From assembly GCA_017502165.1 (NCBI GenBank), contig JAFVVO010000031.1, positions 1 through 64,000 of the forward strand: a DNA stretch of 64,000 bases. Reading direction: 5' to 3'. The translations under genes and the position numbers were made by a program. A model generated the notes under the pieces. That model worked only from the letters and a program-made list of their open reading frames with translations, made no database searches and was not told where the DNA came from. Position 1 is the first letter of the stretch, and each line of letters opens with the position of its first letter. The DNA comes from Clostridia bacterium. Lineage in GTDB: Bacteria; Bacillota; Clostridia; Christensenellales; QALW01. Shown here piece by piece: positions 6,863 through 56,870 of the stretch.

Positions 6863-6891
6863 ATTATACCACACTTTCGCCAATAAATCAA
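6863..6891 (-). promoter_or_regulatory. Sigma-A-type promoter at the end of hairpin array 1
   Basis: On the minus strand TTGATT (6886-6891), a 17-nt spacer and TATAAT (6863-6868), with TGTGG just before the -10. The -35 box abuts the terminal hairpin AAGGC-tac-GCCTT of the array. The same cassette recurs at 38310-38338. Confidence 0.85.
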
Positions 6892-7070
6892 GGCGTAGCC
6901 TTGCATATCATCCGCAACTTGTTGCGGTATATCATCAACACGAAGTGTTGTATATCATCAATCCGCAGGGAAATGCACGCTGGCGCGTGATGAGATACAA
7001 GGGCGGCTTGCCGCCCTTGATGATATGCGCCGCACTTCGTGCGTCAATGATATGCCAAGCCTGCGGCTTG
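6887..7070. repeat. Hairpin array 1 (ATATCATC spacer type)
   Basis: Short perfect hairpins alternate with a constant spacer. In order: AAGGCgtaGCCTT, spacer, CCGCAACttgTTGCGG, spacer, ACACgaaGTGT, spacer, a less regular centre, AAGGGCGGcttgCCGCCCTT, spacer, GCACttcGTGC, spacer, CAAGCCtgcGGCTTG. In the left half the spacer reads ATATCATC; in the right half it reads GATGATAT or AATGATAT, the reverse complement. The whole can fold into several small stems or into one long nested stem. No protein or known RNA family is recognised. Confidence 0.75.
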
Positions 7071-7073
7071 GAT

Positions 7074-7130
7074 AAACAAAAAGAACACTACGTGTGTAGT
7101 GTTCTTTTTGTTGGCGGAGAGAAGGGGATT
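7074..7130. repeat. 57-bp direct copy of the tRNA-Ser 3' end and its terminator
   Basis: Positions 7074-7130 are identical to 7286-7342, an offset of 212 bp. The copy includes a complete terminator hairpin (7078-7109) and 19 nt of the tRNA-Ser 3' end with the CCA complement. It resembles the duplicated tRNA end left by site-specific integration, but no integrase is in the window. Confidence 0.75.
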
Positions 7131-7275: not shown

Positions 7276-7289
7276 CAAACTTTACAAAC

Positions 7290-7321
7290 AAAAAGAACAC
7301 TACGTGTGTAGTGTTCTTTTT
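7290..7321 (-). terminator. Terminator of tRNA-Ser
   Basis: A perfect 14-bp stem (AAAAAGAACACTAC / GTAGTGTTCTTTTT) with a 4-nt loop starts 2 nt past the tRNA CCA end on the minus strand. Confidence 0.85.
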
Positions 7322-7323
7322 GT

Positions 7324-7415
7324 TGGCGGAGAGAAGGGGATTCGAACCCCTGAATGGGTATTAGCCATTACACGATTTCCAATCGTGCGCCTTCGACCAG
7401 CTCAGCCATCTCTCC
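7324..7415 (-). tRNA. tRNA-Ser (anticodon GGA)
   Basis: Ninety-two nucleotides with acceptor stem GGAGAGA/TCTCTCC, discriminator G and encoded CCA. The anticodon stem is CACGA/TCGTG around TTGGAAA, giving anticodon GGA that reads UCC/UCU. A long variable arm and the T-arm GGGTTCGAATCCC identify serine type. Partial copies of its 3' end occur at 7107-7130 and 6052-6063. Confidence 0.96.
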
Positions 7416-37534: not shown

Positions 37535-37605
37535 TGTCTATGTGCTACAAAAAAGATATTTTCGGCATTATTGAGTATGAATTCGAATTCTTACATTTTT
37601 AGTGA

Positions 37606-37770
37606 AGTATCGGCTAACGCCGATGTGAAGTTACGCCGTGGGCATAGTGAAGTTTTGTGCTGTCGCACAAAATGAAGTTAAGTGTGCCACCCACGCCCGC
37701 AGGCACTTAACGATGCGACGCATCGCTTCACGCGCCGAAGGTGTGCTTATCGTGCCACAAGGCACACTTA
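37606..37770. repeat. Hairpin array 3 (GTGAAGT spacer type)
   Basis: Spacer GTGAAGT occurs three times exactly plus ATGAAGT, alternating with hairpins CGGCtaacGCCG, ACGCCG..., TTGTGCtgtcGCACAA and a longer stem TTAAGTGTGCC/GGCACTTAA, then GCGACGCATCGC, a single reversed spacer CTTCAC, and GTGCCacaaGGCAC. The architecture matches arrays 1 and 2 but with its own spacer word. The whole 37535-37773 gap holds nothing else I can recognise apart from a short palindrome GAATTCGAATTC at 37580. Confidence 0.7.
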
Positions 37771-37773
37771 GTT

Positions 37774-37808
37774 AAAAAAAGACCTCGTCTTTCGATAAGG
37801 TCTTTTTT
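37774..37808 (-). terminator. Terminator of the unknown gene at 37820-38287
   Basis: AAAAAAGACCT/AGGTCTTTTTT arms around an 11-nt loop, 12 bp past the stop codon. Confidence 0.82.
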
Positions 37809-37819
37809 CTGGCTAATGA

Positions 37820-38287
37820 CTATAATTTTGATACAAATTTTTTCACAATGGTTACATTGCCAGAAGCATCTTTTTCAAAATGGGCATCAAAACAAAATCT
37901 TTTGTCCCATGCCCTTACGCTAAACGTATAGTCTTTGAGATCGTGGTAACCAAACTTAAACCTTAAAGAATCGTAAGTCAAATCATCCAAAACAGAGGTC
38001 TCAATTTCACCACCAAAACAGTTCACCCCGTCTTTGTAAAATTCAATAGCAGCCTTTTCTGCATTTGCAAAAGAGGAAATATAGCTTATCAAATCGTCTT
38101 TTGAAGAGGTATCTCTATGTTGTGTTGCAAAACGCAAAAGATATTTGTAGTAATCGTCAGGGTAATAGTCAATCACTATTGGAAAATGAAACAGACTATT
38201 CCTTATATAAACGGTTTCGGTATCATCTTTAACACAAATGTCAATGTCATATTCTGAAAATAATTCTTTCAAAAAATCAAAATGCAT
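37820..38287 (-). CDS. Soluble protein of unknown function between hairpin arrays
   Basis: The 155-residue protein is hydrophilic, acidic and aromatic-rich (for example FHFPIVIDYYPDDYYKYLLRF), with no signal or membrane helix. ATG 38287 has GGAGGAG upstream; the in-frame codon at 38338 lies in the promoter. It has a hairpin array on each side and shares its promoter cassette with the unrelated gene at 6269-6820. I do not recognise a family; an immunity-like or accessory role would be a guess. Confidence 0.75.
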   Translation of the reverse strand: MHFDFLKELFSEYDIDICVKDDTETVYIRNSLFHFPIVIDYYPDDYYKYLLRFATQHRDTSSKDDLISYISSFANAEKAAIEFYKDGVNCFGGEIETSVLDDLTYDSLRFKFGYHDLKDYTFSVRAWDKRFCFDAHFEKDASGNVTIVKKFVSKL

Positions 38288-38309: not shown

Positions 38310-38338
38310 ACTATACCACACTCTCGCAAATAAATCAA
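38310..38338 (-). promoter_or_regulatory. Sigma-A-type promoter at the end of hairpin array 2
   Basis: Minus-strand TTGATT (38333-38338), 17-nt spacer, TATAGT (38310-38315), with the spacer ending GAGTGTGG. It is a near copy of the cassette at 6863-6891, including the adjoining AAGGC-tac-GCCTT hairpin. Confidence 0.85.
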
Positions 38339-38566
38339 GGCGTAGCCTTGTATATCATCCGAAACTTGTTGCGGTAGGTTTGCAGTGAAATATTCGGCTT
38401 GCGCCGAATGTGAAATAATTCACTGCGTGAATTGTGAAATATTGCTTCCTTTGGTCGCAATGTGAAATGAAATTTGCCCACATTCGCGTCAGCGAATATT
38501 TCACATTTGCGGAGCAAATATTTCACAGCGGAGCTATTTCACTTGCCCGCAAGGGCAAATTTCGTT
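38338..38566. repeat. Hairpin array 2 (GTGAAAT spacer type)
   Basis: After AAGGCgtaGCCTT and an ACTTGTTGCGG segment shared with array 1, the spacer switches to GTGAAAT(A): four forward copies alternate with hairpins such as TTCGGCttgcGCCGAA, ATTCACtgcGTGAAT and ATTGC...GCAAT. After a central stretch with TTCGCgtcaGCGAA, three reversed copies (ATTTCAC) alternate with TTTGCggaGCAAA, AGCggaGCT and TTGCCCgcaaGGGCAA. The array is thus a palindrome of palindromes. It lies between the unknown gene's promoter and the tRNA-Pro terminator. Confidence 0.75.
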
Positions 38567-38567
38567 G

Positions 38568-38610
38568 AAAAAAGCACACATTTGTCCGGTAGACAAATGT
38601 GTGCTTTTTT
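38568..38610 (-). terminator. Terminator of tRNA-Pro
   Basis: A perfect 18-bp stem (AAAAAAGCACACATTTGT and complement) with a 7-nt loop begins 1-2 nt beyond the tRNA 3' end. Confidence 0.9.
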
Positions 38611-38611
38611 C

Positions 38612-38688
38612 TGGTCTGGGTGAGAAGACTTGAACTTCCGGCCTCATGAACCCCATTCATGCACGCTACCAAACTGCGCCACACCCAG
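38612..38688 (-). tRNA. tRNA-Pro (anticodon GGG)
   Basis: Seventy-seven nucleotides: acceptor CTGGGTG/CACCCAG, discriminator A, encoded CCA. The anticodon stem CATGA/TCATG closes ATGGGGT, so the anticodon is GGG with G37. The C1-G72 pair is typical of bacterial tRNA-Pro. D-loop GTTTGGTAGC and T-loop GTTCAAGTC are present. Confidence 0.95.
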
Positions 38689-56282: not shown

Positions 56283-56660
56283 ATGTCTCTTAATTATAAT
56301 AAAAACAACATCTCTTTGGCAAAGCACCTTCGTAAAAATCCAACACCGCAGGAAGCGCACCTTTGGTATGATTTTTTATCAACATACAAAATAAGATTTC
56401 AGCGGCAAAAAGCTATAGACAACTTTATTGCAGATTTTTATTGCCACAAGGCAAAACTTATCATAGAAATCGACGGTTCACAGCATTTCACGGAAGCAGG
56501 TTTGCAAAAAGACGAATTTCGTACAAACGTTCTCGAAAGATACGGCTTGACCGTTATAAGATTTACCAATAGGCAGATAGATACAAACTTTAACGGTGTA
56601 TGCGAGTATATTGATACTCTCGTTCAAGCCTCCCTCTCGGAGGGAGGGGAACCGCGTTAG
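56283..56660 (+). CDS. DUF559 (Vsr/restriction endonuclease-like fold) protein
   Basis: The 125-residue protein has the DUF559 pattern: LRKNPTPQEAHLWYDFL, FQRQKAIDNFIADFYC and the nuclease-like core LIIEIDGSQH (Glu and Asp metal ligands), ending RYGLTVIRFTNRQID. GGAG precedes ATG 56283 by 9 nt. Its last ten residues (SLSEGGEPR) are read from the first bases of a tandem repeat, so the gene and repeat appear to be one cassette. A DNA-cleaving role is likely but no partner is known. Confidence 0.88.
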   Translation: MSLNYNKNNISLAKHLRKNPTPQEAHLWYDFLSTYKIRFQRQKAIDNFIADFYCHKAKLIIEIDGSQHFTEAGLQKDEFRTNVLERYGLTVIRFTNRQIDTNFNGVCEYIDTLVQASLSEGGEPR

Positions 56661-56870
56661 CGGTGGAAGGAGTTTTTGGCAACACCCCCGACTCTTCCTT
56701 GCAATTAATCGTTCTCTCCCTCAGTCAGCTTACGCTGACAGCTCCCTCTCGGAGGGAGGGGGACCGCGTTAGCGGTGGAAGGAGTTTTTGGCACCCCCCG
56801 ACTCTTCCTTGCAATTAATCGTTCTCTCCCTCAGTCAGCTTACGCTGACAGCTCCCTCTCGGAGGGAGCC
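56630..56870. repeat. Tandem 110-112 bp repeat, two copies plus a partial third
   Basis: Copies start at 56630, 56742 and 56852 with CTCCCTCTCGGAGGGAG. Each contains that palindrome, ACCGCgttaGCGGT, a GGAAGGAG-rich middle, ATTAATCGTT and GTCAGCttacGCTGAC. Copies differ by a few bases and a small indel. The third copy is cut after its palindrome. The 56871-57044 remainder holds a terminator and no gene. Confidence 0.9.

Follow-up and report, generated by a model that had tools for sequence, protein, structure and literature searches.

IVP (PF05635), the 23S rRNA intervening-sequence protein, is a pentameric, Avd-like four-helix bundle. IVP/S23 proteins were discovered in rRNA intervening sequences (IVSs) and have been orphans ever since; they have no known catalytic domain. 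IVSs have long been proposed to be mobile, by a mechanism that is not known. In Coxiella, where the IVS was proposed to be a selfish element, tandem GACAGAT heptamers are found just before the S23p/IVP gene (PMC4990558). The DGR accessory protein Avd belongs to a four-helix bundle family and is a homologue of PF05635 (PMC10053308). Gut-1 (Rfam RF01706) was described as an independent noncoding RNA, rated certainly RNA, and reported from human gut only (Weinberg et al. 2010, PMC2864571). Our literature search returned no paper tying Gut-1 or hairpin arrays to IVP. Here, we analyze a 180-base array of hairpins and heptamers, array 2, which is listed in Rfam as a small RNA but probably represents mobile DNA.

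Array 2 was found in a window of 64 kb (the whole stretch of DNA analyzed, 64,000 nucleotides of the Clostridia genome G000). It lies between the terminator of a tRNA-Pro gene and a protein gene and not in a 23S rRNA helix (table 1). A preliminary description of the sequence had reported four forward and three reversed GTGAAAT words, and these are indeed present at 38385-38542. It had also described variable perfect stems between them. Hairpins do separate the words, but hp3 has only a 5-bp stem with an 11-nt loop and hpC a 3-bp stem. The central pair of that description does not exist, as the center is made of the 11-nt S' block and a single hairpin, hpA. The proposed extent was 38338-38566; the conserved unit also takes in the tRNA terminator immediately past this end. 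According to sequence complementarity, the block containing the degenerate last word could pair with S' in place of its own terminal hairpin.

Table 1. Coordinates of array 2, its surroundings, and other repeats of the 64-kb window
Feature	Position	Strand	Remark
Array 1, word GATATCATC/GATGATAT, with terminator	6889-7112		architecture as array 2
56-bp direct repeat beside array 1	7075-7130 and 7287-7342	-	around a 156-bp insert
Conserved piece of ~58 nt (GCTACAAAAAAGATATTTT...GAATTCGAACTCTTACAT)	37542-37598		adjoins outer end of left arms
Second array, word GTGAAGT, S block TAAGTGTGCC/GGCACACTTA, terminator	37602-37811		3' end of 155-aa gene
155-aa ORF (172 aa if upstream TTG start)	37820-38287	-	adjoins array 2
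Promoter-like sequence	38310-38338	-	-35 TTGATT 38333-38338, -10 TATAGT 38310-38315, 17-nt spacing
Remnant of GATATCATC-type array, 39 nt: CAAGGCGTAGCCTTG hairpin + TATATCATCCGAAACTTGTTGCGG	38336-38374		also in array 1, 6889-6927
Gut-1 (RF01706) match, left arm	38383-38473	+	58.1 bits; gathering cut-off 50
Left arm	38385-38468	+	words and hairpins hp1-hp3
GTGAAAT words, left arm	starts 38385, 38410, 38434, 38462	+	word search
hp1	38392-38409		left arm
hp2	38417-38433		left arm
hp3	38441-38461		left arm
S' block GAAATTTGCCC, 11 nt, array center	38469-38479	+	exact reverse complement of 38553-38563
Right arm	38482-38542	-	words and hairpins hpA-hpC
hpA	38482-38497		right arm
Gut-1 (RF01706) match, right arm	38493-38567	-	67.1 bits; gathering cut-off 50
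GTGAAAT words, right arm (ATTTCAC)	starts 38498, 38520, 38536	-	word search
hpB	38505-38519		right arm
hpC	38527-38535		right arm
Terminal S hairpin	38543-38558	-	right tip, within 38543-38566
Block GGGCAAATTTC	38553-38563	-	half of terminal hairpin + degenerate last word ATTTCGTTG
tRNA terminator hairpin	38567-38611	-	between S tip and tRNA-Pro
tRNA-Pro (GGG)	38612-38688	-	CCA end towards array 2
Different repeat, three CTCCCTCTCGGAGGGAG hairpins	56629-56869		~110-bp unit duplicated (GTCAGCTTACGCTGAC...CTCCCTCTCGGAGGGAG)

As previously described, arrays 1 and 2 have a common start (CAAGGCGTAGCCTTG and the ACTTGTTGCGG piece), with 93% identity over 70 bp. This start is the leftover of a GATATCATC-word array joined to the GTGAAAT array. 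The sequence TATACCACACTTTCG, considered as a genome-wide repeat, occurs at just two sites, both in the window; the common end is therefore promoter-like and not a separate repeat family. By its match to the consensus, a promoter-like sequence with its -35 box adjoining array 2 is directed into the 155-aa gene. Array end and -35 box are similarly arranged at the IVP genes of loci L301 and L303. The 155-aa protein has no match to Pfam; a homologue in locus L066 is encoded directly after an array and an IVP gene. As a GTGAAGT array occupies its 3' end and array 2 its other side, the 155-aa gene is sandwiched between two arrays. The former is homologous to the array of L014, and GTGAAGT arrays were found in loci L014, L019, and L031. 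The ~58-nt piece next to it is also present in L021, L023, L025, L028, L097, and L141; its minus strand has a GTTCGAA that resembles a tRNA T-loop, and it is possibly a degenerate tRNA end.

Pattern and Rfam searches, which give lower bounds for copy numbers, identified about 20 arrays in G000, distributed among four word classes: GTGAAAT, GTGATAT, GTGAAGT, and GATGATAT. The single grammar with exchangeable words proposed in the preliminary description is thus recovered throughout the genome. The arrays cluster by word as had been anticipated, mostly with one word across both arms, but L013 and L023 mix two. Other Clostridia repeat the 4+3 layout, with about 25 such arrays. Across the family, the cognate heptamer is distributed over two inverted arms with about four words in each. 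Compared with array 2, the arrays of L126 and L131 show compensatory stem changes and exchanged hairpin modules: L131 combines the right arm of array 2 with hairpins 2 and 3 of the L069/L111 type. The arrays are not a simple duplicated sequence, in agreement with the initial view. Conversely, the suggested process building stems on a spacer finds no support, most arrays being homologous copies. The assemblies are MAGs, and several of these comparisons rest on related loci.

This organization is not expected by chance. GTGAAAT occurs 25 times in the window, seven of these copies belonging to array 2, compared with 11.3 expected and with no shuffle out of 100 reaching this number. When we searched de novo for 7-mers present as three or more forward copies and then as two or more reverse-complement copies, 46 arrays emerged from the fetched loci, compared with none after shuffling of the loci. 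Among the segments between words, 41% form a stem of at least 6 bp, against 0% after shuffling. A CRISPR array was rejected: the words invert at the center and the inter-word segments are self-complementary hairpins of 9-21 nt, whereas the direct repeats of a CRISPR are uniform and its spacers are unrelated and not self-complementary.

Pairing is constrained across the arrays. Complementarity of S to S' reaches 9 nt or more in 25 of the 33 arrays, involving 14 distinct sequences, against a control mean of 4.4 nt, and this long-range pairing covaries among arrays. In homologous hairpins, 81-96% of the pairs are standard ones, and most positions show between two and five pair types. The predicted fold of array 2 reaches a z of -7.6 as DNA (plus strand) and -5.6 as RNA (minus strand). 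Read in one direction, most loops are of the form C-GNA-G or C-GNNA-G, and a C-G pair closes 138 of the 148 hairpins, versus approximately 25% in control DNA. Loop orientation is mirrored between the arms, TN(N)C in the left and GN(N)A in the right (101 vs. 3 of the 104 classifiable). The RNA-stable tetraloop motif is GNRA; the third base of the GNNA loops is a purine in 33 cases and a pyrimidine in 21. GNA and GNNA loops with any N form extraordinarily stable DNA mini-hairpins (PMC4686876). The use of such loops suggests that the folded form of the array may be single-stranded DNA.

The preliminary description had held that a known repeat family would argue against it. This is in part the case: both arms score above the Gut-1 gathering cut-off, although this family is filed as RNA, in Rfam as an sRNA. 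Each arm of array 2 has the GUGAAAU linkers and the three-hairpin layout of Gut-1. According to an RNA interpretation, each arm would be a Gut-1 sRNA, or a cis-regulatory RNA produced by read-through of the tRNA terminator, binding a protein (perhaps IVP) via GUGAAAU. We consider this unlikely, despite the rating of Gut-1 as certainly RNA, the covariation, the RNA fold, and the location of the arrays behind tRNA transcription units, because it leaves aside the inverted arm pairs on both strands and the near-identical copies dispersed in genomes. The triloops and GNYA tetraloops also point to stability as DNA, and in Gut-1 orientation the left-arm loops are UNC or UNNC, not UNCG. The arrays may still have an RNA function, as GNRA-type loops are stable in RNA too and compensatory changes fit both RNA and DNA. 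In G000 and its relatives, Gut-1 matches come as pairs, "+ then -". Based on these pairs and on the 4+3 layout in MAGs, Gut-1 is seen as one arm of a two-arm element. Rather than an independent noncoding RNA, it is here half of an inverted, multicopy element belonging to an array family that has several word variants, can pair S with S', and is linked to IVP. Nor is it restricted to the human gut: among the matches listed, GTGAAAT arrays with hairpins were found in Clostridia MAGs recovered from the gut of roe deer, goat, sheep, cattle, and horse.

The link to IVP, whose nearest solved chain is 2rld, was observed at the level of the family. GTGAAAT arrays directly adjoin an IVP gene in L118, L126, and L120, whereas the array 2 locus itself carries none. 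Among 41 genomes, IVP is encoded by six of the seven with Gut-1 matches and by two of the 34 without (Fisher's P = 4e-5), although these genomes are related and the co-occurrence is not fully independent. Word arrays, defined as a 6-mer in at least five copies within 350 bp upstream of the gene, precede 63 of the 98 IVP genes of the order; 18 have one downstream. In controls, such arrays were found in seven of 182 window tiles and in no shuffle. Same-strand tRNA genes are located within 800 bp upstream of 32 of the 98 IVP genes, and opposite-strand tRNA genes in two cases. Between genomes, words are shared by 1-4% of IVP pairs below 50% identity, 42% at 60-70%, and 60% above 70%; within one genome, none of the 33 pairs below 60% identity have a word in common. 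IVP identity and word sharing are correlated (Mantel r = 0.27, 0/2,000 permutations). The word goes with the IVP subfamily and not with the genome. This correlation may reflect co-inheritance of a module rather than recognition.

The association extends to other phyla: IVP genes of Akkermansia and cyanobacteria also have word arrays in front, in some cases with hairpins and in some cases flanking the gene at either end, these numbers being indicative since 13 of 27 genes were located. In L406 (Akkermansiaceae), the IVP gene is flanked on both sides by arrays with hairpins whose word, GTGAAAT, is that of array 2. Conversely, arrays are missing from the IVP genes of certain clades (G033, several Bacteroidota), and the array-rich G032 has no IVP. 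The MDSPLI- and ENILIEKS-type IVP genes of L298, L300, L309, L344, L383, and L387 lie directly after a tRNA terminator and have inverted word arrays (TTCACTC.., TTCATTA..) nearly without hairpins. The one IVP of G000 belongs to another subfamily and is encoded close to the end of the contig that carries array 2. As the cognate type is missing, array 2 is an orphan in this genome.

The IVP-associated arrays resemble the 23S rRNA IVS of Coxiella in placing tandem heptamers before an IVP gene and in their connection with stable-RNA genes. They differ from it by their location outside rRNA, at tRNA 3' ends and without a bounding RNase III stem, and by the hairpins between their words, and most copies are devoid of an IVP gene. 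As in plasmid iteron arrays, 7-nt words are repeated next to a gene encoding a putative binding protein, and the word is specific to the protein type. In contrast to iterons, they have inter-word hairpins and two inverted arms, and are chromosomal and multicopy.

The sandwiched 155-aa gene raises the possibility that the arrays are attC-like recombination sites swapping single genes between tRNA ends, any gene between two arrays being a cassette. A GTGAAGT array is likewise found past the gene in L014 and L019, and IVP genes lie between arrays in L277, L292, and the Akkermansia loci. The mosaic structure of the arrays fits this hypothesis, as does the occurrence of one array type beside different tRNAs and genes. 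We nevertheless judge it rather improbable: no conserved core of the attC type was seen, and there is no second GTGAAGT array within the fetched flanks of L017, L021, L026, and L030. In L277 and L289, an IVP promoter and start codon are immediately followed by another terminator and array, as if the gene between the arrays had been deleted or replaced.

Near-identical arrays occupy unrelated sites. Those of L287 and L288 (C16 and C39) are 98.9% identical over 368 bp, and further examples include three copies in G004 and several in G003, many of them lying at contig breaks. Copies with different flanks (L287/L288, L283-285, L270-276) are dispersed as MITEs are. At the orthologous spoIIR/tRNA-Pro site of the congener G001, a terminator is present together with a different gene, and the array is absent. 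In other genomes, the array 2 type and its terminator are located beside tRNA-Ser (L126) and tRNA-Arg (L131). More generally, the S tip faces the 3' end of a tRNA gene, of many isotypes, in 20 of 38 arrays, and in none of the 38 is the tRNA on the other side. The arms are inverted; by eye, no target duplication was seen at the arrays, and no transposase was identified. The arrays share with MITEs their short, non-coding, and dispersed nature, inverted symmetry, near-identical copies, and lineage-specific sites, but differ by an internal grammar of words and hairpins.

Insertion into terminator loops, although striking by eye at L018 and L287, was rejected as a general target: flanks complementary over at least 10 nt were found at two of 16 loci (L018 and L287), no more than with swapped flanks (12%). 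Whole GTGATAT/GTGAAGT elements are present within a split terminator stem in L018 (C10), L287 (C16), and perhaps L288 (C39), the stem halves being AAAAGCGGAGTGA/TCACTCCGCTTTT and AAAAAAGCCAA/TTGGCTTTTTT. Carriage by phages found no support; among the matches listed, the exact GTGAAAT triple pattern is found in viral contigs, few of them with hairpins (best, L198 and L212). Other repeats were noticed in the window. The 56-bp direct repeat beside array 1 corresponds to the terminator together with 18 bp from the start of the tRNA-Ser 3' end. The 156-bp insert that it surrounds looks like another element of tRNA 3' ends, and a sequence similar to its start (CGCCTGTTTCACAGGCTTCCTGCTCG) occurs in G001 (L290). 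The distinct repeat carrying CTCCCTCTCGGAGGGAG hairpins resembles a hairpin (CGTCAGCTCCCTTT..AAGGGAG) of L285, in another genus.

The strong bias towards tRNA terminators, with a promoter -35 box at the opposite end, could also be that of bidirectional insulators or terminators maintained by the host at the ends of tRNA operons and spread by gene conversion. This is very unlikely, as most of the 41 genomes searched lack arrays, those of most members of the order among them, and the orthologous G001 site has none; moreover, many arrays are away from tRNAs, and their word tracks the IVP type and not the genome. Finally, REP/BIME-type repeats moved by a Y1 (RAYT) transposase, which are likewise dispersed, intergenic short hairpins in inverted pairs, can practically be dismissed: no Y1_Tnp gene was found in G000, G001, G003, G004, G013, or G019, the 0 matches in G000 excluding REP/RAYT for this genome, and the arrays keep the linker word and vary the hairpin sequence, which is the opposite of REP.

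We lean towards a reading of array 2 as mobile DNA: it would be a solo, non-coding copy of the cis-acting portion of a mobile element that resembles an IVS, is associated with IVP, and acts in the form of folded single-stranded DNA. The single-stranded array would fold either as a rod of word-word helices with hairpin arms or into an alternative form closed by S-S' pairing. By analogy with initiators reading iterons, IVP oligomers would read the repeated words. New copies of the folded arrays would then arise elsewhere, mostly downstream of tRNA terminators. Given that we know of no catalytic domain in IVP, strand cutting would come from another protein. Without a cognate IVP in G000, array 2 would behave as a stranded, MITE-type copy, its outer end possibly still providing the -35 box of the neighboring gene.

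More tentatively, we propose a new class of mobile elements in which IVP/S23 four-helix bundles would recognize heptamer arrays that are clade-specific and folded into mini-hairpins of single-stranded DNA, and would cause these arrays to spread to tRNA 3' ends and to other sites. It would occur in Clostridia, Akkermansia, Bacteroidota, and Cyanobacteria, with Gut-1 and the Coxiella heptamers as parts of this single system. If this is true, an Rfam entry rated certainly RNA becomes a DNA element, and the arrays would hint at how IVSs might move. For the widespread IVP/S23 family, they would represent the first cis partner and a testable candidate binding site, the clade-specific words making the protein-DNA pairing directly testable.
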